The position numbers were made by a program, and so were the translations under genes. Shown piece after piece: positions 1-34,563 of a stretch of DNA of 48,713 nt; the stretch's first letter is position 1; the number at the start of each line of letters is the position of its first letter. This DNA is from Actinomycetales bacterium. GTDB taxonomy: Bacteria; Actinomycetota; Actinomycetes; Actinomycetales; Microbacteriaceae. The DNA lies in the NCBI GenBank assembly GCA_015655445.1, contig JAATFA010000160.1:1-48713 (forward strand), in the 5' to 3' direction. A model generated the notes under the pieces. The model saw only the letters and a list, made by a program, of their open reading frames with translations. It was not told the origin of the DNA and made no database searches.

Positions 1-22
1 CCTCGGAGCACACGCTCCGAGG
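1..22. terminator. Perfect 9-bp stem-loop at window edge
   Basis: CCTCGGAGC and GCTCCGAGG form a perfect 9-bp stem around the tetraloop ACAC. No U-tract follows on either strand. It probably ends a gene beyond the left edge, or acts late on the leftward transcript whose last gene stops at 136. A second G+C-rich hairpin (42-57, stem GGGGCC/GGCCCC) follows, so the first 135 bases look like a double terminator region without coding sequence. Confidence 0.55.
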
Positions 23-135
23 CCCTCTCGCATGCCGCGGCGGGGCCGCTCGGCCCCCGCGCTCCTCATGGCGCACACGGCGGCCCGCCGGGCACGGACG
101 GGGACCGGCACCCCCATCGACGCCGGTCCCCCGCT

Positions 136-630
136 TCAGGATCCGGTCGCGCGCACGGCGGGCTCGCCCGCGACCGGCGCCGCCGCGCGACCGCGCGCGG
201 CCGCCGCGGACCGCGCGGGGAACGCCGCGTCGCGCTTGGCCGATCGCAGGAAGAGGATCCCCGTCACGCCGATCGCGACGTGCATGACGATGAACACGAC
301 ATTCTGCGCGGTCGGGTAGCCGGCCGCGATCATGTAGGCGTCGTCGAACACGCCGCGCACCGCCGAGAGCGCGACGATGAGCCACACGAGCGGCTCCTGC
401 CATCGTGGGCGCCACGAGGCGAGGATGAGGAACGCCCCGACGACGAGCATCTCGAGGCCGAACATGAAGAGGTAGTCGAGGAAGCCGCGGTACGCGGTGC
501 CCCCGTGAGGACCGTCGAAGCCCGGGATGACCGTCCCGAGCTTCGCGGCGTTGATCGTCGGCAGCCACAGGGCCCCGAGCACGAGATAGACGATCCCGGT
601 GATCCGGAACCACCATGCGAGCTTCTTCAT
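136..630 (-). CDS. BphX-like small integral membrane protein
   Basis: This is a 164-residue membrane protein with about four hydrophobic segments (roughly 10-27, 50-72, 80-95, 109-128) and an Ala/Arg-rich C-terminal tail. The N-terminus (MKKLAWWFRITGIVYLVLG) and the overall layout resemble the BphX family, whose biochemical role is unknown. The ATG at 630 lies 6 nt from a TACGGT box (637-642, complement), so the mRNA may be leaderless. A perfect inverted repeat (645-671) sits directly upstream, in the -35/spacer area, and overlaps the stop of the preceding TetR gene. The regulator therefore probably represses this gene. Family assignment is by resemblance only. Confidence 0.7.
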   Translation of the reverse strand: MKKLAWWFRITGIVYLVLGALWLPTINAAKLGTVIPGFDGPHGGTAYRGFLDYLFMFGLEMLVVGAFLILASWRPRWQEPLVWLIVALSAVRGVFDDAYMIAAGYPTAQNVVFIVMHVAIGVTGILFLRSAKRDAAFPARSAAAARGRAAAPVAGEPAVRATGS

Positions 631-644
631 GCGCTCACCGTACC

Positions 645-671
645 ATTGATTAGACCACCGATCTAATCAAT
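645..671. promoter_or_regulatory. Probable TetR operator (10-7-10 inverted repeat)
   Basis: ATTGATTAGA (645-654) and TCTAATCAAT (662-671) are a perfect 10-bp inverted repeat with a 7-bp spacer, A+T-rich in a G+C-rich setting. It covers the stop codon (663-665) of the TetR gene and ends 15 bp before the ATG of the BphX-like gene, just upstream of its TACGGT -10-like box. Position and symmetry suit a TetR-dimer operator controlling the downstream membrane protein. Binding by the adjacent regulator is inferred. Confidence 0.7.
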
Positions 672-1322
672 CTTGTCGACGACGGCGCCCTCGTCGAACA
701 CGAGGCGCTCGAGGGAGCGCCGCAGCCAGGCCTCGTACCGCTCGCGGGTCCAGCCGGAGTCCTCGACGAAATAGAGGTAGGCCGCGGGACCGGTCAGGAA
801 GCCGAGCACGTCGGCCGCCCCCCCCGCGCGCGCCTCGTCGACCACGCCGTAGCGCACGAGGAAGGACGCCCCGAGGGCCATGTCCGCCCGCCGCCGCTGC
901 TCGAGCTGCGCGGCCGTCTCGCGCACGACCGGGTCGGCGTCGGCCGCCGCGACGAAGGCGCGCCAGATGCCCGCGGCGCGCTCGTTCGCCATCGCGAGAA
1001 AGGAGACGTAGCGCGAGAGCGCCTCGTCCAGGCTCGGCGCGGCGAGGATCTGCGCGAACTCGGGCCGCTCGCTCAGCGAGTGCTGCCCCTCGCTGCCGGC
1101 GAAGGTGCGCTCGAACGCCGCGAGGAGGAGCGCCGACTTCGGGCCGGCGAGGTTGACCGACTGCACGGAGACACCGGCCTCGAGGGCGATTGCGCGCATG
1201 GGGGTGGCGACGTAGCCGTCGCGCACGAAGAGCTTCGCCGCCGCGTCGACGATGCGCGCGCGCGTCGCCGCGGCCTCGGCCTCGCGCCGCGGCGATCGAT
1301 AGGGTCGGGGAGCGGTCGTCAG
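663..1322 (-). CDS. TetR/AcrR family transcriptional regulator
   Basis: This is a TetR-type repressor. The helix-turn-helix is recognisable around ARIVDAAAKLFVRDGY and MRAIALEAGVSVQSV, followed by an alpha-helical ligand-binding domain. Start choice is difficult. The first GTG in frame (1226) would remove half of the DNA-binding domain. Upstream the frame stays open with a typical N-terminus (TTAPRPYRSPRREAEAAATR), but it contains no ATG, GTG or TTG before the stop near 1363. The best start is therefore a CTG at 1322, giving 219 residues. There is no clear ribosome binding site. It is followed by the BphX-like gene, with a perfect operator-like repeat at the junction. Confidence 0.8.
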   Translation of the reverse strand: MTTAPRPYRSPRREAEAAATRARIVDAAAKLFVRDGYVATPMRAIALEAGVSVQSVNLAGPKSALLLAAFERTFAGSEGQHSLSERPEFAQILAAPSLDEALSRYVSFLAMANERAAGIWRAFVAAADADPVVRETAAQLEQRRRADMALGASFLVRYGVVDEARAGGAADVLGFLTGPAAYLYFVEDSGWTRERYEAWLRRSLERLVFDEGAVVDKID

Positions 1323-7431: not shown

Positions 7432-8337
7432 TCACGACTTGACGGCGCCCTGCGTGAGGCCGGCGATGAGCCACTTCTGCAGGACGTAGAAGAGTATGAG
7501 CGGGGGCAGGGCGGCGAGGATGGCGCCCGCCGCGAACAGGCCGAAGTCGACGGTGAACTGGGAGATCGACATCGTGTAGAGGCCTAGCGGCAGGGTGAAC
7601 AGCTGTGGGTCGCGCACGAGCACCTGGATGATGAGCACCTCGCCGTAGGCGTTGACGAAGGTGAGCACCGCGACGACCGCGAGCATGGGCCGGATGAGCG
7701 GGAAGAGCAGCCGGCTGAAGATGATCCAGTGCGAGGCGCCGTCGATCGTGGCCGACTCGTCGATGTCGCGCGGGATCGAGTCCATGTAGTTCTTGAGCAG
7801 CCAGACGTTGCCGCCGATCGCGCCGCCGATGTAGACGCAGATGATCGCGACGTGGCTGTTGAGGCCGAAGACGTCGCTCACGGTGTCCCCGAGCTGCTGC
7901 ACGATGAGGAAGATCGCGACGATCGCGAGCAGGTTGGGGAACACCTGCAGCAGCACGACGACCCGCAGCAGGCCCTCGCGCCCGCGGAAGCGCAAGCGGG
8001 AGAAGGCGTAGGCGGACATCGCCACGACGAAGGTCGTCACGACGGTGACCGCGAGCGAGACCTTGAGCGAGTTCAGGAACCACAGGCCGAAGGGGATCGT
8101 GGGGTCGCTGAACAGCCGCGCGAAGTGCGCGAACGAGATCCCGTCGGGGATGAGGCTCGCGGTCGTCGTCGCGCCGACGGGACTCAGCGCCGTCTTGACG
8201 ATGAAGTAGATCGGCAGGAGGGTCGAGGCGAGCGCGAGCGCGATGAGCACCGTGCTCGCCGCGACCGCTCCTCGCCGGCGGCGCCTCCGGCGGAGCGCGC
8301 CCGCGGTCAGCCGCGGGCGCGCGAGCGCCTCGGTCAT
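7432..8337 (-). CDS. Carbohydrate ABC transporter permease (MalG type)
   Basis: A 301-residue inner-membrane permease with six predicted transmembrane segments and the EAA-loop signature ESATIDGASHWIIFSRLLFP that docks the ATPase. The C-terminus GLTQGAVKS is typical of MalG-like subunits. It starts one base after the upstream MalF-type permease ends and lies 61 bp before GH127. The locus has no ATPase gene; in actinobacteria such importers generally share an MsiK-type ATPase encoded elsewhere. The substrate, inferred from neighbours, is arabinofuranosyl oligosaccharides. Confidence 0.92.
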   Translation of the reverse strand: MTEALARPRLTAGALRRRRRRRGAVAASTVLIALALASTLLPIYFIVKTALSPVGATTTASLIPDGISFAHFARLFSDPTIPFGLWFLNSLKVSLAVTVVTTFVVAMSAYAFSRLRFRGREGLLRVVVLLQVFPNLLAIVAIFLIVQQLGDTVSDVFGLNSHVAIICVYIGGAIGGNVWLLKNYMDSIPRDIDESATIDGASHWIIFSRLLFPLIRPMLAVVAVLTFVNAYGEVLIIQVLVRDPQLFTLPLGLYTMSISQFTVDFGLFAAGAILAALPPLILFYVLQKWLIAGLTQGAVKS

Positions 8338-8338
8338 C

Positions 8339-9973: not shown

Positions 9974-9990
9974 CGGATCCGCGCGTCCCG

Positions 9991-11244: not shown

Positions 11245-11332
11245 CTCAGGTCTGCTCCTTTGCGGACGAGCGTGGACGGGCTCCGCCGGCGGCCGGGCCC
11301 GTGATCACGGGTCGCCGACGCGGCCCGTGAGC

Positions 11333-11372
11333 TTACATCGATGTAAACACGACATTTCTTACATCGATGTAA
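11333..11372. promoter_or_regulatory. Tandem LacI-type operators TTACATCGATGTAA
   Basis: Two identical, perfectly palindromic 14-mers (11333-11346 and 11359-11372) lie 26 bp apart, upstream of the binding-protein gene. The central CG and dyad symmetry are typical of LacI-family operators. A 12/14 match occurs at 13027-13040 before the GH51 gene, and a half-site before the lacI gene. They lie downstream of the predicted transcription start, suggesting road-block repression. Confidence 0.85.
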
Positions 11373-11385
11373 CAGTGCTGCTGGA

Positions 11386-11415
11386 ATGCTGCACCGGCAT
11401 GCTCTCGCTTGTCAA
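11386..11415 (-). promoter_or_regulatory. Predicted promoter of arabinose import operon
   Basis: On the minus strand TTGACA (11415-11410) is followed after 18 bp by CAGCAT (11391-11386). The -35 is consensus and the -10 weak. The start would fall near 11379, just before the two palindromic operators. The -35 overlaps a short hairpin (CAAGCC-TC-GGCTTG, 11413-11426) after the GH51 stop. Confidence 0.5.
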
Positions 11416-11431
11416 GCCTCGGCTTGGCCGA

Positions 11432-12955
11432 TCACGCCCGCACGGGCGAGAGCGAGACCGCGGTCCAGCTCGCGGCGGGCAGCTCGACGCGCAACACGGC
11501 GCCCTCGATGCGCGCCGTGCCGTTCGCCCGCAGGCCCACCCGATCCGGGTTCTCACGATCGTTGACCGCACGGAGGTCGGCGTCGTGCAGGGACTCGCAC
11601 GCGCTCACCGTCGACGGCGCGAAGCCCGAGACGTCGACCGTGACGGCCATGGCCTCTCCGAGGTGACGGTTCACGAGGAAGAGGGCCGTCTCCCCCGTCT
11701 CCTCATCGTGGGTCGCGACCGCATCGAGCAGGGGCACCGGCCCGTACTGGGCGGTCTCGGTCGTGCCCGCGCTGACGCTCGTCGTGAGCGACGCACCGCG
11801 CGCGAGCCGCGCGGTGAGGGCGAAGGGGAAGAACGTCGTCTGCCGCCAGGCGGGGCCGCCCGGCTCGGTCATGATCGGGGCGATGACGTTGACGAGCTGC
11901 GCGAGGCTCGCAGAGGTCACGCGATCGGCGTGCTTGAGCAGCGAGATGAGCAGGTTGCCGACGACCACGGCGTCGGCGACCGTGTACACGTCCTCGAGCA
12001 GGCGCGGCGCACGCGGCCAGAGCTCCGGATCCGTGATGCGCTCCTCGTTGCGATACCGGTCCAGGTACCAGACGTTCCACTCGTCGAACGAGATCTGGAT
12101 GGTCTTCTCGCTGTGGCGCTCGGCCTTCACTGCGTCGGCCATCGCGGCGACCGACTCGATGAAGAAGTCCATGTCGACCGCGGAGGCGAGGAAGCTCGCG
12201 AGGTCGCCGTCGTGCTCCTGGTAGTACGCGTGGCAGGAGATGTGCGAGACGACGTCGTACCCCGCGCGCAGCACCGTCTGCTCCCACGTCCCGAAGGTGG
12301 GGATGTGCGCTCCCGAGCTGCCGCACGCGACGAGCTCGAGGCCCGGGTCGAGCTGCAGCATCGCGCGGGCCGTCTGCACGGCCTTCTTCGCGTACTCCTC
12401 CGCCGTCCAGTGGCCGAGCTGCCAGTCCCCGTCCATCTCGTTGCCGAGACACCACATGCGGATGCCGTGCGGCTCGACCGCGCCGTTGGCGACGCGCCGG
12501 TCGGAGAGCGCGGTGCCCGCGCGCACGTTCGCGTACTCGAGCACGTCGACGGCCTCCTCGAGCCCGCGCGTGCCGAGGTTCACGGCGTACATGACGTCGA
12601 CGCCCGCCTTGCGGGACCATGAGACGAACTCGTCGAGGCCGACCTCGTTCGTCTCGATAGAGTGCCACGCGAGGTCGAGGCGGCGCGGACGGCTCTCGCG
12701 CGGCCCCACGCCGTCCTCCCACCGGTAGCCCGACACGAAGTTGCCGCCCGGATAGCGCACCATCGTGACGCCGAGCTCGCGCACGAGGTCGAGCACGTCG
12801 GTGCGGAATCCGTCCTCGTCCGCCGCAGGATGCCCGGGCTCGTAGATCCCGTCGTAGACGCATCGCCCGAGGTGCTCCACGAACGAGCCGAAGAGCCGGC
12901 GGTCGATCACCCCCACCGGGAAGCGGGGATCGATGACGACATGGCCGGTCTGCAT
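11432..12955 (-). CDS. GH51 alpha-L-arabinofuranosidase
   Basis: A 507-residue intracellular retaining arabinofuranosidase that removes terminal alpha-L-arabinofuranosyl residues. The acid/base glutamate is E173 in WCLGNEMDG and the nucleophile is E292 in SFDEWNVWY, each in its family context. MVRYPGGNFVSGYRWEDG is the family's N-terminal signature, and a beta-sandwich follows the barrel. The ATG at 12955 is chosen because GAGGAGAG is just upstream; an earlier start would add only Pro/Arg. There is no signal peptide. It lies between lacI and the import operon and has a LacI-operator-like site in its promoter region. Confidence 0.95.
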   Translation of the reverse strand: MQTGHVVIDPRFPVGVIDRRLFGSFVEHLGRCVYDGIYEPGHPAADEDGFRTDVLDLVRELGVTMVRYPGGNFVSGYRWEDGVGPRESRPRRLDLAWHSIETNEVGLDEFVSWSRKAGVDVMYAVNLGTRGLEEAVDVLEYANVRAGTALSDRRVANGAVEPHGIRMWCLGNEMDGDWQLGHWTAEEYAKKAVQTARAMLQLDPGLELVACGSSGAHIPTFGTWEQTVLRAGYDVVSHISCHAYYQEHDGDLASFLASAVDMDFFIESVAAMADAVKAERHSEKTIQISFDEWNVWYLDRYRNEERITDPELWPRAPRLLEDVYTVADAVVVGNLLISLLKHADRVTSASLAQLVNVIAPIMTEPGGPAWRQTTFFPFALTARLARGASLTTSVSAGTTETAQYGPVPLLDAVATHDEETGETALFLVNRHLGEAMAVTVDVSGFAPSTVSACESLHDADLRAVNDRENPDRVGLRANGTARIEGAVLRVELPAASWTAVSLSPVRA

Positions 12956-13026
12956 GGCTCTCCTCGGTGGGCGCGGCGGGCGCGGCACCCCGGGGGGGGC
13001 ACCGTCGGATGACTGCGCCTAGTGTG

Positions 13027-13040
13027 TTACATCGTTGGAA
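13027..13040. promoter_or_regulatory. Candidate LacI operator before GH51 gene
   Basis: TTACATCGTTGGAA matches the perfect operator TTACATCGATGTAA at 12 of 14 positions, with the left half and central CG intact. It lies 72 bp upstream of the GH51 start, so the glycosidase probably belongs to the same regulon as the importer. Confidence 0.65.
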
Positions 13041-13080
13041 ATCGTGCAAGGCAGCGCGGCTCCCCCTCCGCGGTCACGCG

Positions 13081-14094
13081 TCAGGCCGCCGTGGACTCCC
13101 GCACCTCGAGGCGGAACGAGGCGACGACCTCCTCGTGCTCCTCGTCCTCCCGCTGCCCGCTCAGCCGGCGATGGAGCAGGTCGACCGCGAGGCCCGCGAT
13201 CTCCCGCCGTCCGGGGTCGACGCTCGTGAGGCTCGGGGTCGAGAAGCGCGCGTCGAGCGTGTTGTCGAACCCCGCGACCGCGACGTCCTCGGGGACCCGC
13301 CGTCCGCTGCTGACGAGCGCCCGAAGCGCCCCGAGGGCCAGAGCGTCGTTCATTCCGAACACCGCATCGAAGGGCATCCCCTGCTCGAGAAGGGCGCGCA
13401 CGGTCGCCTCCCCCGCGTCGCGAGACCACTCGCGCGGCGCGACGACGAGGCGCGGATCGAGGTCGACCCCCGCCTCCGCATAGGCTGCGCGCGCCCCGCG
13501 CAATCGCAGCGGGCCGGCGCCCACGACAGGATCGTCGGGCGCCGCGCCTAGGAGCACGACACGCCGACGACCGGTCGCGAGCAGGTGCGTGACCGCCTCG
13601 TTCGCGGCCGCCTCGTTCGCCATCGTGACATGGTCGAGGGAGCTGTGGAAGATGCGCTCCCCCAGCAGGACGGTCGGAACGGTCGGCGTGATCGCGCTCG
13701 CGTCGTCGGGGCCGATGCCCTGCGGGCTGAAGATGAGCCCGTCGGTGAAGACCTCCCGCCGCCCCGAGACGATCGCGAGCTCGCGATCGACGTCGCCCCC
13801 CGTCGTCTCGACGAAGACCGTGAGGTCGACGGTCGCGGCGACGTCGATGACCGCTTGGGCGAGCTCGGCGAAGTAGGGCTGCGTGAGCTCGGGGATCGCG
13901 AGCGCGATCGTGCCGGAGCGCCCCGATCGCAGGTTGCGCGCCGAGATGTTCACGCGATAGTCGAGCTCGCGGATCGCCTCCTCGACGCGTCGGCGCGTCG
14001 ACGCGCGGATGTAGGGGTGCCCGTTGATGACGTTCGAGACGGTCTTCACCGAGACGCCCGCGCGCCTCGCCACGTCGCTCATCGTCGCGGCCAC
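13081..14094 (-). CDS. LacI family transcriptional repressor
   Basis: A 337-residue LacI-type regulator. The N-terminal helix-turn-helix and hinge (MSDVARRAGVSVKTVSNVIN, then DYRVNISARNLRSGRS) precede a periplasmic-binding-protein-like effector domain (SGTIALAIPELTQPYFAEL, DAVFGMNDALALGAL). The GTG at 14094 has GGAGGT 4 nt upstream; an ATG four codons later is possible. It stands between the sugar loci and directly upstream of GH51. The palindromes before the importer and GH51 are its likely targets, and an AATGTAA half-site (14127-14133) in its own leader suggests autoregulation. The effector is probably an arabino-oligosaccharide. Confidence 0.92.
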   Translation of the reverse strand: MAATMSDVARRAGVSVKTVSNVINGHPYIRASTRRRVEEAIRELDYRVNISARNLRSGRSGTIALAIPELTQPYFAELAQAVIDVAATVDLTVFVETTGGDVDRELAIVSGRREVFTDGLIFSPQGIGPDDASAITPTVPTVLLGERIFHSSLDHVTMANEAAANEAVTHLLATGRRRVVLLGAAPDDPVVGAGPLRLRGARAAYAEAGVDLDPRLVVAPREWSRDAGEATVRALLEQGMPFDAVFGMNDALALGALRALVSSGRRVPEDVAVAGFDNTLDARFSTPSLTSVDPGRREIAGLAVDLLHRRLSGQREDEEHEEVVASFRLEVRESTAA

Positions 14095-14233
14095 CGCACC
14101 TCCCGGTCTGACATCCGTCCGCGCTCAATGTAACGCCGCGACGTGGGCCGCCATGCCGTCGCTCCGGCGACCGCCCCGGCTGCCGCGCCCCACCGAGGCG
14201 AGGACCGCGCGCGGCGGCGCACGGCCGCGCGGC

Positions 14234-15256
14234 TCAGCCCGGTGGCGCGACCGACGGGGCGAAGTCGACCGCCGCGACACCCTCCCGGTATCGGCCGAGC
14301 GCCGAGCGCGCGGCTCCCGCCGCGTCGAGGGCCGCGAGCCCTGCGCCCAGGATCGGGGGCGAGGTCACGAGCACCGTCTCGGCCCGCGGGGCCGTGCGGG
14401 CGAGACGATCGGCGATGCCGGGGACGAGCGTGCGCGACTGGCCCGCGATGACCCCGCCGCCGAGCACGATGGGCACCGGCCGATCGTCGAGGCCGAGCCG
14501 GCGCAGGCACGTCGTGGCGAGGACCACGACCTCGTCGACCTGCCGCTCGACGATCGCCGCCGCGACGCGATCGCCCTGCCGCGCGGCGTCGAAGACGACG
14601 GGCGAGAGCAGGTTGATGCTCCGCCGCGGGAGTCGGCCGAAGTGGAGCCCCTCGACGACCTCCCGCACGGACGCGAGCCCGAGCGCGCGCGGGACGAGCT
14701 CGCACAGGAGCGTGGTCTCCCCCCGACCGTCGTCCGCGCGCGCGGCATGCCACAGCGCCCGGATGCCCAGGTGCGCGCCTCCGCCCCAGTCGCCGGATAT
14801 CTCGCCGAGCGCCGGGAAGCGCGCCGTCGCGCCGTCGGCGCGCACGCCGAGGGCGTTGATGCCCGTGCCGCACACGACCGCGACGGCGTCCGGGGAGAGC
14901 GTGCCCGCCCGCAGGAGCGCGAACAGGTCGTTGTCGAGCACATCCGGGCCGCGGCCCCGCGGGCCCCAGTGCGCGAGCCGCTCGCGTGCGACGTCGAGCT
15001 CGGCCGGCAGGTCGAGGCCCGCGAGGTAGACGTGCGTCGTGACGATCTCGCGATCGCCCATCGCGGCGAGCACGCGGTCGCGCAGCGTCACAAGGATCTC
15101 GAGCGCCCTCGGCCAGCCGGCCGTCTGGGGATTCGACCCGCTCCCGCGCGCGTGCGCGACGATCCGTCCATCGAGCCCGATCGCGACGACGTCCGTCTTG
15201 CTCCCGCCGCCGTCGACCGCGAGGACGACGGGCGATGCGCCTGTGCACCCGGTCAT
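14234..15256 (-). CDS. BadF/BadG/BcrA/BcrD-type sugar kinase (N-acetylglucosamine kinase-like)
   Basis: A 340-residue ASKHA-fold kinase. The phosphate-1 motif is VDGGGSKTDVVAIG, the phosphate-2 motif is VCGTGINALGV, and the adenosine motif is VLGGGVIAGQ. SGDWGGGAHLG matches GlcNAc-kinase relatives. It would phosphorylate an imported sugar with ATP. The ATG overlaps the GH4 stop as ATGA (15253-15256), so the two are translationally coupled. The GH4 next door acts on phosphorylated sugars in much of its family, and this kinase may supply the phosphate. The substrate (glucose, GlcNAc or a disaccharide) is undetermined. Confidence 0.87.
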   Translation of the reverse strand: MTGCTGASPVVLAVDGGGSKTDVVAIGLDGRIVAHARGSGSNPQTAGWPRALEILVTLRDRVLAAMGDREIVTTHVYLAGLDLPAELDVARERLAHWGPRGRGPDVLDNDLFALLRAGTLSPDAVAVVCGTGINALGVRADGATARFPALGEISGDWGGGAHLGIRALWHAARADDGRGETTLLCELVPRALGLASVREVVEGLHFGRLPRRSINLLSPVVFDAARQGDRVAAAIVERQVDEVVVLATTCLRRLGLDDRPVPIVLGGGVIAGQSRTLVPGIADRLARTAPRAETVLVTSPPILGAGLAALDAAGAARSALGRYREGVAAVDFAPSVAPPG

Positions 15257-16527
15257 CGCGCCCAGGGGAGGTAGTCGGCGTTCGCGGCGAGCAGGAGGTC
15301 GGTGAGCCGCTCCGCGCGGTCGAGCTGCCCTACGAGCGGGTGGGCGAGCATCGCGCGCAGGACGCGCTCGCGTCCGCCGCGCACGGCGGCGTCGAGCGCG
15401 AGCCGCTCGTACGCCGCGACGTGCGCGATGAGACCGGCGATGTCCTCGGGCACGTCGCGCACGGGCTCGGCGACGATGCGCCCCGCGCGCACGGTCGCGG
15501 GCACCTCGATGACGTGGTCGTCGGGCAGGAAGGGCAGCGTGCCGTCGTTGCGCACGTCGAGCACCTGCACGTCGCCGCGGTCGTGCAGGATCGAGGAGAG
15601 CACGTCGATCGCGGCCTCCGAGTAGTACGCGCCGCCGCGCTGCTCGAGCTCGGGGGGCTTCGTGTCGGTCGCCGGGTCGGCGTACCGCTCGAGCAGCGCG
15701 CGCTCGGTCGCGGCGACCTGCTCGGCGCGCGTGGGGCCGCTCAACTGCTCCGCGAGCACCTCGTCGTGGGCGTAGTAGTAGCGCAGGTAGTACGACGGGA
15801 GGGCCCGCTGCATCGCGAGGAGCTCGGGGCGGGCGTGGACGACGTCCGCGAGCTCGGCCAGACGCTCGTCGAGCAGCTCCGGCAGCACGTCGCGCTCGCC
15901 GCCGTCCGCGTCGAGGACGCGGACGCCGCGCTCCCACGTGAGGTGGTTGAGGCCGACGTGCTCGAGGCGCACGCGATCGGGCGAGACCCCGAAGTCGGCC
16001 GCGAGGCGACGCTGCAGGCCGATCGCGACGTTGCAGAGCCCGACCGCGCGGTGGCCGGCCTCGAGCAGCGCGCGCGTCACGATCCCGACGGGGTTCGTGA
16101 AGTCCACGATCCATGCGTCCTTCCGGGCGTGCCGGCGCACGGCCTCCGCCGTCTCGAGGACGACGGGCACGGTGCGCAGTGCTTTCGCGAGGCCGCCAGG
16201 CCCCGTCGTCTCCTGGCCGATGCAGCCGACCTCGTGCGGCCAGGTCTCGTCGTGGCGCCGCGCCTGCTGCCCGCCGATGCGGAACTGGAGCATGACGGCG
16301 TCGGCGTCGGCGACCCCCGCGACGAGATCGTCGGTCACGCGCACGCGGCCCGGATGCCCCGCGCGCGCGAACATCCGCTCGGCGACGCCGCCGACGAGCT
16401 CCCGCCGCACCGGATCGGGGTCGACGAGCCACAGCTCGTCGACGGGCAGCTGCTCGCGCAATCGGGCGAAGCCGTCGACGAGCTCGGGCGTGTACGTCGA
16501 TCCGCCGCCGACGACGCTCAGTTTCAT
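15253..16527 (-). CDS. GH4 glycosidase, 6-phospho-beta-glucosidase type
   Basis: A 424-residue NAD- and metal-dependent glycosidase that works by oxidation, elimination and reduction. The N-terminal NAD loop is LSVVGGGSTYTPELVDG. C165 (GLCNVAIG) and H195 (GLNHLTW) are the expected metal ligands. IGQETTGPGGLAKALRTVP is typical of the 6-phospho-beta-glucosidase branch. AGGATAGGA precedes the ATG. It follows the MalG-type permease by 2 bp. Because uptake here is by an ABC importer and not a PTS, the 6-phosphate, if needed, must be added in the cell. Confidence 0.92.
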   Translation of the reverse strand: MKLSVVGGGSTYTPELVDGFARLREQLPVDELWLVDPDPVRRELVGGVAERMFARAGHPGRVRVTDDLVAGVADADAVMLQFRIGGQQARRHDETWPHEVGCIGQETTGPGGLAKALRTVPVVLETAEAVRRHARKDAWIVDFTNPVGIVTRALLEAGHRAVGLCNVAIGLQRRLAADFGVSPDRVRLEHVGLNHLTWERGVRVLDADGGERDVLPELLDERLAELADVVHARPELLAMQRALPSYYLRYYYAHDEVLAEQLSGPTRAEQVAATERALLERYADPATDTKPPELEQRGGAYYSEAAIDVLSSILHDRGDVQVLDVRNDGTLPFLPDDHVIEVPATVRAGRIVAEPVRDVPEDIAGLIAHVAAYERLALDAAVRGGRERVLRAMLAHPLVGQLDRAERLTDLLLAANADYLPWAR

Positions 16528-16529
16528 TC

Positions 16530-17411
16530 CTATCCTTTCACTCCCGTGAGGGCGATCCCCTCGACGAAGGCCTTCTGCGCGAAGAAGAAGATCACGACGA
16601 CCGGTGCCGTGATGACGACGGTCATCGCCATCGTCATGCTCCAGTCCGTGCCGTGCACGCCGCGGAAGGTCGCGAGCCCGTACGCCACGGGCCACGCCCC
16701 CGGGTTCTCGGAGGCGTAGAGCAGCGGACCGTAGTAGTCGTTCCAGGAGTGGAAGAACAGGAAGATCGCCGCGGACGCGATGCCCGGCCGCGCCATCGGC
16801 ACGATGACGCGCATGAGCACGCCGAGCTCGCTGCAGCCGTCCATGCGCGCCGCGTCCGCGTACTCCTCCGGGATCGTCAGGAAGAACTGGCGGAGCAGGA
16901 AGATGCTGAACGCGTCGCCGAGCAGGTTGGGGAGGATGAGCGGCCACAGCGTGCCCGTGAGGTGGAGCTGGCTCCACATGACGTAGACGGGCACGGCGGT
17001 GACCTGGGGCGGCAGCAGCATCGCGACGACGATCGCGGTGAAGATCACGTGCGACCCGCGGAACCGGATGCGCGCGAGCGCATACGCGGCGGGCACGGAC
17101 GACACGAGCATGAACGCGGTCGCGAGCACGGCGTACAGCGCCGAGTTGCCGAACCACTGCGCGAGGGGCAGGGTCGCGAACACGCGCGCATAGTTCGCCC
17201 ATTCCCACGTCTGGGGCACGAGCGACCTCGTGAGCGCCTGCCGGCTCGACATGAGCGAGGTGAGCACGACGAAGACGACGGGCGCGATCGTGAGCACCGC
17301 GAGCGCCACGAGCACGACGTGCTCGGCGACCCACGCGAGGGCGCGCGCGGGCGGCCGGCGTCGTCCTCGCGGCGCCGTGGGCACGAGACCGCTGCGGACG
17401 GCGAGGCTCAT
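16530..17411 (-). CDS. Carbohydrate ABC transporter permease (MalG type)
   Basis: A 293-residue six-transmembrane permease with the EAA motif YADAARMDGCSELGVLMRVI and the usual C-terminus GIALTGVKG. GGAGG precedes the ATG, which overlaps the upstream permease stop as ATGA (17408-17411). It stops with TAG. With the upstream permease and lipoprotein it forms the second sugar importer of the window. Again no ATPase is encoded nearby, so a shared MsiK-like subunit is expected. Co-transcription with GH4 and the BadF kinase suggests a beta-glycoside or amino-sugar disaccharide substrate. Confidence 0.92.
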   Translation of the reverse strand: MSLAVRSGLVPTAPRGRRRPPARALAWVAEHVVLVALAVLTIAPVVFVVLTSLMSSRQALTRSLVPQTWEWANYARVFATLPLAQWFGNSALYAVLATAFMLVSSVPAAYALARIRFRGSHVIFTAIVVAMLLPPQVTAVPVYVMWSQLHLTGTLWPLILPNLLGDAFSIFLLRQFFLTIPEEYADAARMDGCSELGVLMRVIVPMARPGIASAAIFLFFHSWNDYYGPLLYASENPGAWPVAYGLATFRGVHGTDWSMTMAMTVVITAPVVVIFFFAQKAFVEGIALTGVKG

Positions 17412-18424
17412 CGGACCTCCTCGGCACGGAATACGCGAATGCGGCGGATGGTGAGGCCGAGCACGGTCGCGGTGATCGCGAAGAGCACGACGGCCATCGC
17501 CGACGCGTACCCGAACTGGAAGCTGGCGAACCCGTGCTCGTAGAGCAGCTCGGTGTAGGTCAGCAGGGACGTGCCCGGATAGCCGAGCAGCGTCGCGGTG
17601 CCGGACCCGACCGTCGCCTTCCCGCTCGCGACTCCCGACGCGACGGCCGCCTCCGTGAAGTACTGGAGCGCGGCGATGACGCCCGTGACGACCGAGAAGG
17701 CGATCACGGGAGAGATCGTCGGCAGCGTGACGTGCCGGACCTGGTGCCACGCGCCGGCGCCGTCGAGCGAGGCCGCCTCGTAGAGCTCCCGCGGGACCTC
17801 GAGGAGCGCGGCAAGGAGGATGATCATGAGGTCGCCCATGACCCACACGCCGAGGATCACGAGCGAGGGCTTCGACCACGCGGGGTCGTTGAACCATAGC
17901 GGCCCCTGGACGCCGAACCACGACAGCACCTGGTTGACCGGTCCCGTGCCCGGGTTGAAGAGGAACACGAACGCGACGACGCTCGCGACGGGCGGCATGA
18001 GCGCGGGCAGGTAGAAGATCGTGCGCCACAGTCCCGGCGCCGTGCGCGCCCGCGCGAGCAGGCCCGCGACGATGAGCGCGCAGACGATGCGCACGGGCAC
18101 GAGGACGACCACGAACCACAGCGTGTTCACGACCGCCGCGCCGATCTGCGGGTCCTGCGTGAAGAGGTATCGGTAGTTGAGCAGGCCGACCCACGCCGGG
18201 CTCGCGAGCTGGTCGTAGCGCGTGAACGACCAGAAGACGGAGGCGACGAGCGGGTACCCGTAGAAGAGCCCGAGGCCGAGCAGCGCGGGCGCGAGCAGGA
18301 GCATGGCGACCCCGAGTCGACGGCGGGCCGCGCGATCGCCGCGCCGCGCCGTCGCGGACCGCGCCCCCGGTCCGCGCAGCAGCCGGAGGCGACCGGACCG
18401 CACGTTGCTGGCTCCCGCGATCAC
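17408..18424 (-). CDS. Carbohydrate ABC transporter permease (MalF type)
   Basis: A permease of 338 residues with an Arg-rich N-terminus, six transmembrane segments (first around LGVAMLLLAPALLGLGLFYG) and the EAA motif YEAASLDGAGAWHQVRHVTLP. The GTG at 18424 overlaps the lipoprotein stop as GTGA. A second GTG six codons later has GGGAG upstream and is an alternative. It pairs with the MalG-type subunit in the membrane to carry sugar delivered by the upstream binding lipoprotein. Confidence 0.9.
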   Translation of the reverse strand: MIAGASNVRSGRLRLLRGPGARSATARRGDRAARRRLGVAMLLLAPALLGLGLFYGYPLVASVFWSFTRYDQLASPAWVGLLNYRYLFTQDPQIGAAVVNTLWFVVVLVPVRIVCALIVAGLLARARTAPGLWRTIFYLPALMPPVASVVAFVFLFNPGTGPVNQVLSWFGVQGPLWFNDPAWSKPSLVILGVWVMGDLMIILLAALLEVPRELYEAASLDGAGAWHQVRHVTLPTISPVIAFSVVTGVIAALQYFTEAAVASGVASGKATVGSGTATLLGYPGTSLLTYTELLYEHGFASFQFGYASAMAVVLFAITATVLGLTIRRIRVFRAEEVR

Positions 18425-19749
18425 GGCCCGCTCAGCGCCTTCTCGTTGTCGATGTCCTCGTCGAGCTTCGCGAGGGCCGCATCGAGGTCTCCTCCCTTGC
18501 TCTGGTAGTCCTCCCACATCGTCGTGAACGTCGTGAGGTAGGCCGCGCCGTCGCTCGTCGCCGGAGAGGTGAGCGTGTGCGGGTCGGTCGCCGCGTCGAC
18601 GAACACCGAGTAGTCGCCGTCGACCTCGAGCGTCGGCGAGGTGAGGGCGGAGGTGATCGTCGGCACGTTCTTGAGGCCGTTGCCGAGCGCGACCTGCGCG
18701 TCGGTGTCGAGGGCGAGGTACTTCAGGAGCGCCCACGCTAGCTCCGGATGAGTCGACCCCTTGGCGATGCCCGCGACGTTCCCGGAGATGTAGGACGCGC
18801 CGTAGTGTCCCAGCCCGTCCATGACGGGCGTGGGCGCGATGCCGTACTGCAGGTCGGGGGCCTGATCCGCGATGAAGGCGGTGCGGTACTCGCCGTCGAT
18901 CTCCATGGCGACCTGGCCGGTCTGGAACGCGTTGTCGGCGTCGAACTCCTGCCCGAGGCCGGAGGTGAACGCCTGCAGCTTGTCGTAGCCGATCGCGTCG
19001 ACGAAGCGCTTCTGCCATTGGATGAGCTGCTTCCAGCCCGCCGAGGTGCCGATCGCCGACGTGCCGTCCTCCTTGAGCCACGGCCCGTCGACCATGGGCG
19101 AGAAGTGGGCCGGGGAGTTCTCGTAGAAGCCCATGAGCGGGTCGAAGCCGAGCGTCTTGATCGAGCCGTCCGGGTTGTAGGTCGTGAGCGCCATCGCGTC
19201 GCTCTCGAGCTCGTCGAGCGTCGTCGGCGGCTTCGTGATGCCGGCCGCCGCGAGCAGCTTCGTGTTGTACAGGAGCGCGCTCGTGTCGGCGAGCACGGGA
19301 AGGGTGCAGCGCGTTCCCTTGTACTCGGTGTAGGAACGCGGGGCGGCGGGGATGTCGGAGAGGTCGACGCCGTCGCGCTTGACGTAGGGCCCGAGGTCGC
19401 GGAACGCTCCCGACGAGCAGAAGGAGCCGACGATCGCCGTCGAGTAGGAGAGGCCGACGTCGATCTGCTGGCCCGAGGCGATCGCCTTCTGCAGCTTCTC
19501 ATCGTCCTGACCCGCGTGCACGTCGACCTTGACGTCAGGATGCCTCTTCTCGAAGTCGTCGACGACGCCCTGCACGACCGATGCCTCGCGGCCCGTGAAG
19601 AAGTGCCAGAGCGAGACGGTTCCGGACAGGTGGCTGGGCGCCGCGTCGGCGATTCCGGCGGAGCCTCCAGGGCTGCAGGCGACGAGGCCTGCGACGACCG
19701 CGGCGGCGGCTGCGACGGCCGCCGCCCGGCGGAGGGTGGTCTTGCTCAC
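18421..19749 (-). CDS. Extracellular sugar-binding lipoprotein of second ABC importer
   Basis: A 442-residue solute-binding protein of the MalE-like cluster. A short basic N-terminus (SKTTLRR) and a hydrophobic stretch end in the lipobox LVAC, with C25 lipidated. The mature start HLSGTVSLWHFFTGREAS is characteristic of the family. The GTG start has GGGAG upstream. It is first in a five-gene operon (lipoprotein, two permeases, GH4, BadF kinase) and lies 100 bp downstream of a ROK regulator on the same strand, separated by a 12-bp stem-loop. Confidence 0.93.
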   Translation of the reverse strand: MSKTTLRRAAAVAAAAAVVAGLVACSPGGSAGIADAAPSHLSGTVSLWHFFTGREASVVQGVVDDFEKRHPDVKVDVHAGQDDEKLQKAIASGQQIDVGLSYSTAIVGSFCSSGAFRDLGPYVKRDGVDLSDIPAAPRSYTEYKGTRCTLPVLADTSALLYNTKLLAAAGITKPPTTLDELESDAMALTTYNPDGSIKTLGFDPLMGFYENSPAHFSPMVDGPWLKEDGTSAIGTSAGWKQLIQWQKRFVDAIGYDKLQAFTSGLGQEFDADNAFQTGQVAMEIDGEYRTAFIADQAPDLQYGIAPTPVMDGLGHYGASYISGNVAGIAKGSTHPELAWALLKYLALDTDAQVALGNGLKNVPTITSALTSPTLEVDGDYSVFVDAATDPHTLTSPATSDGAAYLTTFTTMWEDYQSKGGDLDAALAKLDEDIDNEKALSGP

Positions 19750-19790
19750 GTGACATCACTCCCGGGGTGGATGGGTGGCATGGACGGATG

Positions 19791-19822
19791 CGGAGCGCAC
19801 GGACGACGGGCCGTGCGCTCCG
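19791..19822. terminator. 12-bp stem-loop between ROK regulator and importer operon
   Basis: CGGAGCGCACGG (19791-19802) and CCGTGCGCTCCG (19811-19822) are a perfect 12-bp inverted repeat with an 8-nt loop. Placed after the ROK stop and before the lipoprotein start, it probably separates the two transcripts; it could also be an attenuating leader hairpin. No U-tract is present. Confidence 0.65.
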
Positions 19823-19849
19823 CGGGACGCACGGCACCGGCGAGGGCGC

Positions 19850-21064
19850 TCACGAGGACTGGCCCGAGCCCGCGGGCTCGGCGAGGTCGGACAGGGAGTC
19901 GGCGAGCGCGCTGCGGATGCGGCCGACGAGGACGCGGCGGGCGCCGTGCAGCACGGGCGTCTGTGTCACGACGGGCGGCACGACGGCCGTGCACCAGCGC
20001 GTGTGGGTGCGCAGCCAGCGGGTGACCTCGGCGGCGAGCGGCGCCCCCGCCGCGATGCCCGTCGGCCCGTGCAGGATGACGACCTCGGGGTCCGCGACGG
20101 CGAGCGCGGGAAGGATCGCGTGGCCGACGCGCTCGCCGAGGGCGGCGACGAGCGGATGGTGCGGGTCGAGCTCGGGAAGGCGCGCGAGCACGTCGCGCCA
20201 CTCCGCGCCCTCGGGCACGACGCCGTGGCGGATCCCGAGGCTCGTGATGGCGCGCTCGGAGACGAGCTCGGCGATGTCAGGGGCGTTCTCGTCGAGCGCG
20301 AGAGCGTCGGCCGGGGGGCTCAGGTATCCGATCTCGCCCGCGGCGCCCGACGCGCCGCGGTGCAGCACCCCGCCCAGGTCGAGGGCGAGACCGAGGCCCT
20401 CCGCGAGCCACACGAGGGCGAACGAGTCGTGCGCGGCGCCCGCGCCGAGCTCTCGCTCCGCGATCGCCGCGAGGTTCGCGTCGTTCTCCACGGTCACGTG
20501 CACGCCGAGCTCGCGCGAGAGCGTCTCGGTGACCTGCTCGTGCGGCCAGCCGAGGAGCCCGTCGGTGAAGGTGAGCGTGTCCGAGGCCTGGTCGACGGAG
20601 GCCTGCACTCCCGCGCACACCTCGGTCACGTCGTCGGGATCGACGCCCGCGGCGGCCGCCGCGCGCTCGACGGCGTCCGAGAGGATCCCCGCCGCGGGCG
20701 CCGCCGCCTCGGCCGGCGTCATCCGGCGGGAGGCGACCGGGAAGGTGCGCCCGCGCGCGTCGACGACCGCCGACCGGACGTCGACGAACTGGACGTCGAC
20801 GGCGACCGCGAGCGTGCGCTCGGTGATGACCTCGTAGAGCACGGGGTTGGGCCCGCGCCGCCCCGACGTCGTGCCGGACTCGCGGATGAGCCCCGCGAGC
20901 TCCAGCCGCCGGATGATCTCGCCCGCGGTGGGCTTGCTCAGGCCCGTCAGGTGCGCGATCTCGTTGCGCGTGAGCGCGCCGTGGTCGAGCAGGAGCGAGA
21001 GCGCCGCGCGGTCGTTGAGCACGCGCAGGAGCGCCGGCTGACCTCGATTGGGGACCGCGTCCAT
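19850..21064 (-). CDS. ROK family transcriptional regulator
   Basis: A 404-residue repressor of the NagC/XylR type. The N-terminal winged helix (LTRNEIAHLTGLSKPTAGEI) is followed by a ROK sugar-binding fold (VAVDVQFVDVRSAVVDARG; VENDANLAAIAE retains the kinase-type Asp). The usual zinc motif with several cysteines after GEIGYL is missing, since no cysteines follow, so it is a zinc-less ROK. The ATG at 21064 has GGAGGAG upstream and is preferred to the GTG at 21082. It probably senses the sugar of the adjacent operon. A direct repeat (21122-21146) in its promoter is a candidate autoregulatory site. Confidence 0.92.
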   Translation of the reverse strand: MDAVPNRGQPALLRVLNDRAALSLLLDHGALTRNEIAHLTGLSKPTAGEIIRRLELAGLIRESGTTSGRRGPNPVLYEVITERTLAVAVDVQFVDVRSAVVDARGRTFPVASRRMTPAEAAAPAAGILSDAVERAAAAAGVDPDDVTEVCAGVQASVDQASDTLTFTDGLLGWPHEQVTETLSRELGVHVTVENDANLAAIAERELGAGAAHDSFALVWLAEGLGLALDLGGVLHRGASGAAGEIGYLSPPADALALDENAPDIAELVSERAITSLGIRHGVVPEGAEWRDVLARLPELDPHHPLVAALGERVGHAILPALAVADPEVVILHGPTGIAAGAPLAAEVTRWLRTHTRWCTAVVPPVVTQTPVLHGARRVLVGRIRSALADSLSDLAEPAGSGQSS

Positions 21065-21121
21065 GGACTCCTCCGGAAGCACGAGAGCGTGTCTGGGTGA
21101 GAGCCACCGTAACAGGCAGGC

Positions 21122-27733: not shown

Positions 27734-27865
27734 CTACGACTCGCGCCCGGCCCGCGGCTCCTCCCGCAGCACGCGCACGGGCCCGAGGAGGCCGTACTCG
27801 CGCGGATACGTGGACTGCATGCGATCCTCGTGCCCGCCGATGACCGCGATGACGTCCTGCACGTG
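27734..27865 (-). other. In-frame coding tail of GH106-like gene beyond TAG
   Basis: Past the TAG at 27866-27868, the same frame stays open for 43 codons to a TAG at 27734. It encodes HVQDVIAVIGGHEDRMQ and then PREYGLLGPVRVL. YGLLGPVR is the usual closing motif of the C-terminal jelly-roll domain in this glycosidase family, so this stretch was recently, or is still, coding. Confidence 0.75.
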
Positions 27866-30703
27866 CTAGTAATAGCCGCGCGCGAGCAGGCGGTTGTTGA
27901 GCGAGCTCGCGACGCGGACGGTCACGACGGTGTCCCCCGCGTGCAGGCGCCCGGTGAGGTCGACCATCGGATGCGAGGTGTCGAACCCCTGCGGCTCCCC
28001 GCCGTCGATGCGCACGGCGCCGAGGCCGCCCGCCGTGGAGCCGAGGTCGAGCACGTAGCGTGCGTGCGGGTCGGGCTCCTCGTCGAGGTGCAGCGTCGTC
28101 GTGTACTCCCCCACGCCCGAGACCTCCGGCCCGATCTCGGGGATGTCCTTCCACGGGCGCAACGGTCCCGTCCCCGCGTCCAGGCGCGTGACCGCCGTCG
28201 TCGGCCGCACCTCGCGCGTCTCGTAGCCGAGGCCACGATCCTCGGTGATGAGCCGGGGCTCACCCGCGTCCCAGCTCTCCACGGCGATCGACCACTCCGC
28301 GAGCTCGGCGACGGTCTCGCGCACGGCGGGCGCCGACGCGGGGGCGGGAGCGGACGAGCGGTCGAGGGTCAGCAGCGCCGTCTCGCCGGGGGCGAGTGCG
28401 ACGGTCACGAGCGTCCGCTCGCCCTCCAGCCGCACGCCGTCGTGGGGCCGCACGTCCCCCGTCCACGCGTCGATGCGGTGCACGCGCCCCGCACCGGGCA
28501 GGCTCACCTCGACCTCGACGGGCTCGCCCGTCTCGTAGAGGAAGTGGTACAGGTACACGTGCAGCAGGTCTCCGTCCTCGCGCACGTGCGACAGCACGGT
28601 GCGGTTCTCGCGCGTGAACTCGGCGCGACCGACGACGCCGAGGCGCCGCAGTGCGTCGACCGTGAGCGCGGGGTCCTCGATCTCCGCGACCGTGGGCAGC
28701 GCCACGAGCTCGGCGATCGTCGCCGCGAGCTCGTCGTCCCGGCCGTCGAGGCCCGGCGTGCGCGCGGCCGCCCGCTCGTGCACGCGGTGGCGGCGCTTGG
28801 TCAGCTGCACGAGCTCGCGCGCGCCGTGCACGACGAGCACCCGGAGGCCGCGACGCGCCTCCTCGAGGAGCTTGGCCGCGGTGTCCGGGTCGAGCTCGCC
28901 CTGGTAGACGATGAGCGCCTGGTAGCCGGGACCGCCGGGCTGCACGAGCCCGTCCTCGATCGTCACGTCGTCGTGCAGGAGCAGCGACCCGTCAAAGAAC
29001 TCGTAGGTCCAGCCCGCGTCCTGCATGCCGAGGTCCTGCCACCAATGGTTCTCGCGATCGCGCATCCACCACCGCCCGTAGGCCACCTCGTCGGCGACGC
29101 GCGTGCCGTCCTCGTCGAAGAACGCCATGCCCGACATGTTGTCGGTGAAGTGGTCGGTCCGCAGGATGCCGACGTCGATGCGCGGCCGCCCCTGCCGCAG
29201 GACGAGCTGGTAGCGGCCGATCGCGCGATTCCAGAGCGGGTAGAACTCGGCCGCCGGCTGCCGCGTGTCGAAGCGGTCGGAGAACATCGGCCACATGCCC
29301 TCGTGGCCCGGCCACTCGGTCACGCCCTCCGCGCCCGCGGGGCTCGCCCAGCCGTGCAGCACGGTCTTGGTGATCCCTGCGGCGAGCTGGGTCGCGATGA
29401 TCTGGTCGTAGAAGCGGTGGTCGAGCATGAGGTTGCGTGTCGTCGCGCCCGTCTCCGAGGAGTACTGGCGCCCGAACAGGTGCGCGGGGCCCGCGAGGAG
29501 GCGGTAGGCGTCGATCTGGGCGGCGAACTCGAGCGACTCGGTCTCGATGCCGTCGACCTCGGGGCCCGGGCGCGTGAGCTCGAACGGCAGGCCGTAGCTG
29601 ATCTCGGAGCGCAGCCCGATGCCGTTCTCGTGCAGGAAGGCCGCGAACGGGCGGAGCATGTTCTCGATGTAAAGGTCGGTGAGCGTGCGGACGTAGTCGA
29701 AGCGCACCTTCTCGACCGTCGCGCGGTGCCCCTCGTCGGGCTCGTTGTGATAGGTCGTGTCGACGGCCATCATGGGTGCGTCGCGCGTGAGGAAGGGCAG
29801 CCAGGGCACGATGTCGTAGCCGCGCCGCGCGCGGAACTCGTGCGCCACGGTGCGTCCCCAGAACATGCCCCCCGCACCGAAGGTCGACAGCTCGAGCGAG
29901 TCCATGTACATCTGCGTACGCGGGTTGCGGGCGATCTGCTCCCGCAGCTCGGGCGTGAGCACGACCGAGTCCCAGTAGTCGATGACGGCCTCGACGCCGT
30001 CCCGGTCGAGGTAGTTGACGGTGTAGTTGACGGAGGCGGAAGGGAAGGCCGTCTGCCCCGTGCCGTGCACCCAGTACGCGAAGAGGCGCCAGTCGCCCTC
30101 GGCCGGGGCCGTCCAGTCGAGCACGTCGTCGTGCACGTGCGGCGTGAGGTCGAGCACGGAGTCGGTGTCGAGGACGACGCCGAGCGCCGTCGATCCTGTC
30201 ACGCGCGCGGCGACGACGGCGACGAGCGACTGCTCGCGGATCTCGCCCCGGTGACCGGGGATCGCGCGCGGGGGCGGCGGCGCCGCGAGGTCGACGCGCG
30301 GGAGCGGACCGGTGCGCGTCGCACCGCCGCGCACGTCCTCGACGACGACGTCGAGCTCCTTCGCGGCCGCGGGGTGGTCGGGGTCGATCGTGGGGAGGTT
30401 GGCGTTCGACCAGTTCGTGCCGGATGTGAAGCTCACGGCCATGCCGCGCCTCGTCGTCTCCTCGACGACGATCTGCGAGTCGTGCACCCACTCCTCGGAG
30501 CCCCACCCGTAGCGGGAGTGGTCGACGTTCTCCTCGTCCATGGCGAGGAACTCCATGCCCCCGAAGCCGAGACGGTGGGCCGCGTCGATCTCGTGCCGGA
30601 GCGTCTCGTCGGTGTGCAGGCCCTCCGCGAGCCACCACCGCACCTCGGGGCGGTACTCGATGGGCGGGTCGACGAGGAGTCGAGCGAGGTCGTCCAGTGT
30701 CAT
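27866..30703 (-). CDS. GH106-like glycoside hydrolase (alpha-L-rhamnosidase family), truncated by TAG
   Basis: A 945-residue cytoplasmic glycosidase resembling GH106 alpha-L-rhamnosidases. The N-terminal motif RPEVRWWLAEG, with GFGGMEFLAMDEENVDHSRY, begins the barrel, and MAVSFTSGTNWSNANLP follows. C-terminal beta-sandwich domains end in VRVASSLNNRLLARGYY. AAAGGAG precedes the ATG. A TAG codon then interrupts a frame that continues for 43 typical residues, so the protein lacks the end of its last domain (full length 989). A LacI-type operator (30797-30808) lies upstream. Its role is release of rhamnose from plant pectin or glycosides. Confidence 0.82.
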   Translation of the reverse strand: MTLDDLARLLVDPPIEYRPEVRWWLAEGLHTDETLRHEIDAAHRLGFGGMEFLAMDEENVDHSRYGWGSEEWVHDSQIVVEETTRRGMAVSFTSGTNWSNANLPTIDPDHPAAAKELDVVVEDVRGGATRTGPLPRVDLAAPPPPRAIPGHRGEIREQSLVAVVAARVTGSTALGVVLDTDSVLDLTPHVHDDVLDWTAPAEGDWRLFAYWVHGTGQTAFPSASVNYTVNYLDRDGVEAVIDYWDSVVLTPELREQIARNPRTQMYMDSLELSTFGAGGMFWGRTVAHEFRARRGYDIVPWLPFLTRDAPMMAVDTTYHNEPDEGHRATVEKVRFDYVRTLTDLYIENMLRPFAAFLHENGIGLRSEISYGLPFELTRPGPEVDGIETESLEFAAQIDAYRLLAGPAHLFGRQYSSETGATTRNLMLDHRFYDQIIATQLAAGITKTVLHGWASPAGAEGVTEWPGHEGMWPMFSDRFDTRQPAAEFYPLWNRAIGRYQLVLRQGRPRIDVGILRTDHFTDNMSGMAFFDEDGTRVADEVAYGRWWMRDRENHWWQDLGMQDAGWTYEFFDGSLLLHDDVTIEDGLVQPGGPGYQALIVYQGELDPDTAAKLLEEARRGLRVLVVHGARELVQLTKRRHRVHERAAARTPGLDGRDDELAATIAELVALPTVAEIEDPALTVDALRRLGVVGRAEFTRENRTVLSHVREDGDLLHVYLYHFLYETGEPVEVEVSLPGAGRVHRIDAWTGDVRPHDGVRLEGERTLVTVALAPGETALLTLDRSSAPAPASAPAVRETVAELAEWSIAVESWDAGEPRLITEDRGLGYETREVRPTTAVTRLDAGTGPLRPWKDIPEIGPEVSGVGEYTTTLHLDEEPDPHARYVLDLGSTAGGLGAVRIDGGEPQGFDTSHPMVDLTGRLHAGDTVVTVRVASSLNNRLLARGYY

Positions 30704-33891: not shown

Positions 33892-34425
33892 ATGCCGAGG
33901 GACGCGGATCCGTTCGAGGGCGTCGACGCGCACGTGCGACCGCACTGGGAGCGGTCGGCACTGCTGACGATCGACGTCCAGCGGGACTTCCTCGACGGAG
34001 GCGCCGCGCCGATCCCCGGCACGACGGGCGTGCTGCCGCGGATCGCGGAGCTCGTGCGCGCGTACCGGGACGCAGGTCTGCCGGTCGTCCACGTCGTCCG
34101 CCTCTACGCGGGCGAGGACGTCGACCTCGTGCGCCGCAGCGCGGTCGCGGCCGGCGCGCCCCTCGTGCGCCCGCGATCGGAGGGCTCGCAGATCGCGGCC
34201 GCGCTCCTGCCGTCCGCGGCGGCCCCGCTCGACGCGGAGCGCCTGCTCGCGGGAGACGTGCAGCCTCTCGGCGGCGCCGAGGTCGCGATCTGGAAGCCGC
34301 GGTGGAGCGCCTTCCACCGCACGCCCCTCGCGGAGCACCTCGCCGCGCTCGACGTCGACACGGTCGTCATCGCCGGCTGCAACTACCCGAACTGCCCGCG
34401 CGCGACGCTCTACGACGCGAGCTAG
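33892..34425 (+). CDS. Isochorismatase-family cysteine hydrolase, interrupted by TAG
   Basis: A 177-residue product with the isochorismatase triad: D28 (TIDVQRDF), K135 (IWKPRWSAF) and C168 (GCNYPNCPRATLYDAS). GGAGG precedes the ATG. The frame meets TAG at 34423-34425, then continues with RDLRAVLASDAISRL, exactly what follows YDAS in this family (normally YDAS-E/Q-RD). Translation therefore loses the last strand and helices of the Rossmann fold. It is either a recent nonsense pseudogene, a sequencing error or an amber readthrough product. The intact enzyme (223 residues) would hydrolyse a small amide or ester. Confidence 0.82.
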   Translation: MPRDADPFEGVDAHVRPHWERSALLTIDVQRDFLDGGAAPIPGTTGVLPRIAELVRAYRDAGLPVVHVVRLYAGEDVDLVRRSAVAAGAPLVRPRSEGSQIAAALLPSAAAPLDAERLLAGDVQPLGGAEVAIWKPRWSAFHRTPLAEHLAALDVDTVVIAGCNYPNCPRATLYDAS

Positions 34426-34563
34426 CGAGACCTGCGCGCCGTGCTCGCCTCCGACGCGATCTCCCGCCTCGCGCCCGCCCACCTCGAGGAGGCGCGGGAG
34501 ATCGGCGCGCTCGCGGCGTCCGCCCGCGCGATCGGCGAGTGCGCGGCCGCCGCCGCACGCTGA
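34426..34563 (+). other. In-frame coding tail of isochorismatase-family gene beyond TAG
   Basis: After the TAG the same frame is open for 45 codons to a TGA at 34561. It starts RDLRAVLASDAISRLAPAHL and encodes the expected C-terminal region of the family. This shows that a single base change separates the present gene from an intact one. Confidence 0.8.

Follow-up and report, generated by a model that had tools for sequence, protein, structure and literature searches.

A derived amber codon in an otherwise intact GH106-like glycosidase gene, and similar mid-gene stops in the same draft assembly

An amber codon near the C-terminal end of an otherwise continuous open reading frame may be the natural end of the protein, a mutation, a codon that is read through, or a flaw of the assembled sequence. 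This question is raised by a GH106-like gene in a window of 48,713 nucleotides, which is contig C141 of a draft genome assigned to the Microbacteriaceae (2.96 Mb, 185 contigs, 86% complete). The minus-strand frame spans 30703..27734, starting with an ATG (30703-30701) preceded by AGGAG at 30712-30708. It meets a TAG (27868-27866) directly after the residues LLARGYY, and then continues for 43 sense codons including the motif YGLLGPVR. The original prediction was correct on the position of this stop and on the length of the run-on, and a gene call halting at the first TAG does drop the tail, as it had anticipated. In a coding scan of the window, the tail codons score as coding (+0.46 per codon, n = 43). 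Positive-scoring extensions past the stop are exhibited by five of the 44 predicted window genes: the GH106-like gene, an isochorismatase-family gene that is also interrupted, two genes for which the extension coincides with a downstream gene read in the same frame, and one scoring about zero per codon. We rejected the presence of a second GH106 copy, a single match being found in the source genome (86% complete).

The coordinates of the interrupted genes and their stops are given in Table 1.

Table 1. Interrupted genes and in-frame stops discussed in the text (window positions unless a locus is named)
Feature	Position	Strand	Remark
GH106-like glycosidase, open frame	27869..30703	-	945 codons before the stop; PF17132 match at 176-513
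In-frame TAG, codon 946	27866..27868	-	D/E column in 55 of 60 actinobacterial homologue loci
In-frame tail, 43 codons	27737..27865	-	shares homology with the C-terminal ends of relatives; the predicted model has its last strand at residues 976-983
Second TAG, terminator near the end point of relatives	27734..27736	-	end of the GH106-like frame
Isochorismatase-family gene, interrupted	33892..34560	+	stop lies within the Pfam match (22-197)
In-frame TAG of the isochorismatase gene, codon 178	34423..34425	+	E in the three closest relatives
purB in-frame TAG, codon 75	L175 2907-2909, contig C83	-	26 of 29 relatives have Gln, among them the same-genus genome

The family assignment made in the original prediction holds, the protein matching PF17132 (GH106 alpha-L-rhamnosidase) with 106.4 bits (cut-off 29, E-value = 2e-30). 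An AlphaFold2 model built with the TAG read as Gln (pLDDT 88.5, pTM 0.90) exhibits the overall fold of the solved GH106 members, with matches to 6q2f (Z = 26.3, 839 residues, rmsd 4.6, span 4..981), 5mqm (Z = 25.1, span 5..982) and 5mwk (Z = 25.4). The residues D268-S269-L270-E271 are invariant in a 37-row alignment and are aligned with DSIE of 6q2f. The accessible text of PMC6828813 gives D458, S459 and E461 as the acid/calcium motif of BT_0986; the corresponding D-S-x-E motif of the window protein is recognized through the 6q2f alignment and not through BT_0986 itself. E417 and E367, invariant in the same alignment, are candidates for the catalytic base E593 and the calcium ligand E538 of BT_0986. 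The window protein thus shares family match, fold and D-S-x-E motif with the GH106 alpha-L-rhamnosidases (PF17132), such as BT_0986 and RHA-P of Novosphingobium sp. PP1Y, with 14-22% identity to the solved members. Unlike theirs, its gene is interrupted by a single in-frame TAG, 44 codons short of the frame's end. According to the model, this first TAG strips the last strand of the C-terminal domain and leaves the catalytic part, including D268, S269 and E271, in place.

The alignment of homologues indicates that the 43-codon tail belongs to the protein. We fetched 80 homologue loci, one of which (L078) ends before this point and was left out. In none of the remaining 79 does the frame stop after GYY or the residues matching it, and related sequence follows that point; the natural end at GYY by which the original prediction would have been refuted is not seen. 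The YGLLGPVR motif closes the last domain of relatives, as stated there, and the tail aligns with their C-termini. At column 946, the 60 actinobacterial loci (some genomes being represented twice) exhibit Asp (35), Glu (20) or Ala (5), and further residues also occur in distant loci from other phyla. No row of the 37-row alignment departs from G971 or G974. The seven tail residues that are invariant in 29 relatives (D950, G957, G971, L972, G974, P975 and V976) are all kept in the window. When compared with 29 intact actinobacterial rows in a leave-one-out score, the window tail ranks 16 of 30, and 13 of 30 when the 200 columns before it serve as the reference. The tail was accordingly rejected as chance or unrelated sequence. 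That the natural protein ends at GYY, followed by unrelated downstream sequence, has a negligible probability given these loci and the model, which aligns with rhamnosidase 6q2f up to residue 981.

In the whole window protein, four departures from near-invariant columns are observed, a number within the range of intact relatives. A test for base errors revealed one departure of each of four change types, hence no excess of any. The gene exhibits one mark of a pseudogene, a premature stop absent from relatives, and no sign of lost constraint was found in the tail score or in the departures across the protein. A very recent nonsense change would leave no such sign. Since no homologue stops there, the column is Asp/Glu and the tail is undecayed, the TAG is a derived change of a single base in a GH106-like gene that is intact and of full length in all other respects. 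The lack of a shared stop, together with the few departures, means that the change is either recent or not real.

A search of 398 genomes of the family, our own included and drawn from a larger group, yielded some GH106 match in 32 and a close orthologue (at least 58% identity) in 13 others than our own. None of these 13 has a stop at the position of codon 946. The close orthologue is broken or truncated in other ways in three of them: a frame break lies near residue 485 in G376 and near 251-264 in G343, and in G389 only residues 626-978 are present. One of the two frame-broken orthologues appears to be that of Frondihabitans sucicola (L069, about 6440-6470), a species yielding alignments identical to those of G376. 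As candidates for a shared stop, we considered the in-frame stops flagged in G437, G343 and G376, and rejected them, none lying at codon 946. The G437 orthologue has no stop in its aligned part (to residue 976), the stop of G343 sits in a stretch read past the frame break, and G376 has none within its two pieces; these flagged stops are most readily taken as terminators or frame breaks. Plasmid homologues of the GH106-like protein exhibit at most 30% identity among the best 8 of 38, and the one that was aligned has gaps at the TAG position.

The original prediction overlooked that other genes of the same genome are interrupted likewise. A second case, the isochorismatase-family gene (Table 1), emerged from the coding scan of the window, and for this reason we scanned further stretches of the same genome. 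The scan covered 81 stretches from 59 contigs (one being all N), or 1.34 Mb of 2.96 Mb (about 45%) and 413,105 coding codons, the window included. By eye, we identified 13 stops inside genes (12 TAG and 1 TAA) on 12 contigs. Homology runs across the stop in 11 of the 13, all TAG and on 10 contigs. The genes concerned are GH106, isochorismatase, purB, Asp23-like, amidohydrolase, inositol monophosphatase, acetamidase, Wzz-type kinase, GMC oxidoreductase, PrpB-like lyase and a GntR-UTRA regulator. The other two stops are a TAG on C4 in a frame with no Pfam match and a TAA on C26 with a weak match falling short of the stop. The interrupted purB is the only full-length adenylosuccinate lyase match found in the source genome (86% complete). 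A TGA on C41 (19773) was dropped, being antisense to a long open frame, and a TGA on C6 (11807) is uncounted, having failed the common filter described below.

Recognizable frameshifts are fewer than stops by eye, in a scan that is less sensitive to them; they are found on C78 (two matching pieces) and, by eye only, on C50 and C32. Contig C78 (L190, about 12941 and 14729, plus strand) carries two adjoining amidohydrolase paralogues, one frame-broken into the two matching pieces and one with an in-frame TAG. Probable frameshifts seen by eye lie at L315 13287 and L171 2882, both on the minus strand, in MFS-like and DUF2332-like genes.

Is this number of mid-gene stops unusual? We compared our genome with two controls under one common filter, sorting mid-gene stops from gene ends by eye. 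In our genome, 32 stops are flagged, of which 12 are mid-gene (11 TAG and 1 TAA) and 20 correspond to gene ends, gene boundaries or spurious frames; the stop of the GntR-UTRA regulator falls just below this filter. In 400 kb (125,092 codons) of a genome of the same genus (G001), seven stops are flagged and none is clearly mid-gene, a TGA at L218 2162 being ambiguous. In 48 of 51 actinobacterial contigs (GC above 64%; 597,597 bases, 187,243 codons), all nine flagged stops are gene ends. The two controls together thus exhibit no clear mid-gene stop in 312,335 codons. At an equal rate, the chance that all 12 fall in the 57% of codons contributed by our genome is about 0.001, or about 0.004 for the 10 homology-supported cases alone (calculated by hand). 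There is an excess of mid-gene stops in our assembly over these two controls, which are one single-contig genome and a set of contigs chosen for holding GH106, unlike the fragmented draft.

The cause of this excess is inferred, as is the effect of the GH106 stop on its protein. Because at least 10 more genes of the assembly look intact except for one TAG, purB among them, the GH106 TAG is probably confined to the consensus sequence of this fragmented draft, either as a wrong base or as a variant carried by a minor strain, the gene being otherwise intact. This option was missing from the original prediction. Ordinary gene loss fits an excess of single stops in otherwise clean genes, together with a broken purB, less well than consensus errors or a mixture of strains. 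Several observations do not favour this explanation. Base errors are not otherwise apparent in the GH106-like gene, and no inner stop is seen among the matches listed of 98 PF00005 (ABC-domain) matches of our genome. GH106 is also an accessory gene, and three of the 13 other genomes of the family carry a frame-broken or truncated orthologue, making a real loss plausible. Overlaps between contigs were considered as the origin of variants; among the matches listed for the sampled contigs, there is no repeat of at least 150 bases at 88% identity or more.

The TAG may instead be a real and recent nonsense allele of the strain, with the gene at the first step of loss, a possibility that we consider appreciable but clearly the less likely one. 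The stop is derived, seen in this assembly only and unaccompanied by further decay, and it affects a single-copy gene of the accessory kind just described. In that event, the ribosome would make a 945-residue enzyme with a complete catalytic part, and the loss of the last C-terminal strand would probably destabilize it. Against this allele, the 45% of the genome that was sampled contains ten further genes in which homology continues past a like stop, one being the sole full-length purB found. That frameshifts are fewer than stops does not sit well with it either, with the reservation on sensitivity made above. The accessible text of Belinky et al. 2021 (PMC7918605) describes short-lived in-frame stops in bacterial genes, those that are kept being common to two or more species. 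Those cases, as far as that text goes, resemble the present one in being single nonsense changes in conserved genes lacking further decay. They differ from it in occurring in at least two species, the window stop being seen in one draft assembly only, where an artefact is possible.

A further explanation is natural amber suppression in this lineage: UAG would be decoded in part as an amino acid, perhaps Gln or Glu, yielding low levels of full-length GH106 and of the other interrupted products. We regard this as improbable. In its favour is the identity of the stops: TAG accounts for 11 of 11 homology-supported interruptions and 12 of 13 overall, with a usage-weighted expectation of 73% (0.73^11, calculated by hand, is about 0.03). 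However, G>T or C>T changes alone would yield 84% TAG, and the TAG-only bias is at best suggestive. The residues replaced point in the same direction in part. Besides the D/E column of GH106, the Glu of isochorismatase and the Gln of purB (Table 1), the PrpB-like lyase has E in three of three alignments, the monophosphatase has Q in the closest of three relatives and N in the other two, and the Wzz kinase has Q, R and E in three relatives. In contrast, the columns of the amidohydrolase (T, A, M; G in its paralogue) and of the GMC oxidoreductase (D, A, A; K, G) are not of the E/Q type. By a hand calculation from codon usage, Glu or Gln codons are the origin of about half of the single changes producing TAG, and therefore the E/Q columns are weak evidence for suppression. 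Expression of purB, which is presumably needed, would also be explained by suppression.

The translation machinery speaks against it. RF1, whose loss full reassignment would require, is intact (TIGR00019, 470 bits, an open frame with GGQ). None of the 34 tRNAs scoring over the cut-off in the genome (86% complete) has a CUA anticodon. TAG would also be expected to be unused as a terminator under full reassignment. In the window, the frames of 10 of 44 predicted genes end in TAG, and after removal of the two interrupted genes 8 of the 42 others terminate at TAG; the GH106-like gene's own terminator at 27734 is TAG too. The base following TAG in 11 contexts is C in six, A in two, G in two and T in one, exhibiting no common signal. 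These data, with the lack of a PylS match, argue against both reassignment and a programmed site, and are compatible with weak suppression by a gene located in the missing part of the genome. Of the two outcomes offered by the original prediction, a recent nonsense change agrees with the derived state of the stop, and read-through does not agree with the intact RF1, the lack of a CUA tRNA among those found, and the lack of a stop at this site in the 13 orthologue genomes.

It is less likely still that a Microbacteriaceae-like lineage generally tolerates UAG in ordinary genes through low-level Gln- or Glu-inserting suppression, keeping RF1 and UAG terminators, with tens of genes including purB made at a reduced full-length level. 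A pyrrolysine system and full UAG reassignment were rejected, RF1 and TAG terminators being present and no match to PylS (TIGR02367) being found in the source genome (86% complete). As in known cases of stop-codon reassignment or pyrrolysine/amber suppression, TAG occurs here within conserved genes and partly at E/Q columns; the present genome differs from them in its RF1, its TAG terminators, and the lack of a PylS match and of a CUA tRNA among those found.

By itself, the GH106 stop is probably worth no more than an ordinary derived stop in a conserved glycosidase. Among the literature matches listed, no title or opening of an abstract concerned this case (a GH106 rhamnosidase amber stop or pseudogene, or amber suppression in Actinobacteria). 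Neither dropping the tail from the annotation nor calling the gene a pseudogene is safe on this assembly, and the internal TAGs of this draft call for a check against the reads before gene loss or recoding is claimed. Were they borne out there, the coexistence of a functional RF1 with TAGs in genes such as purB would make this bacterium a direct test case for natural amber suppression.

A sugar-use cluster is also found in the window, at 7432-21082 on the minus strand, about 6.7 kb from the GH106-like gene. It comprises an arabinofuranosidase C-domain, a GH4 gene, LacI and ROK regulators and parts of an ABC importer.
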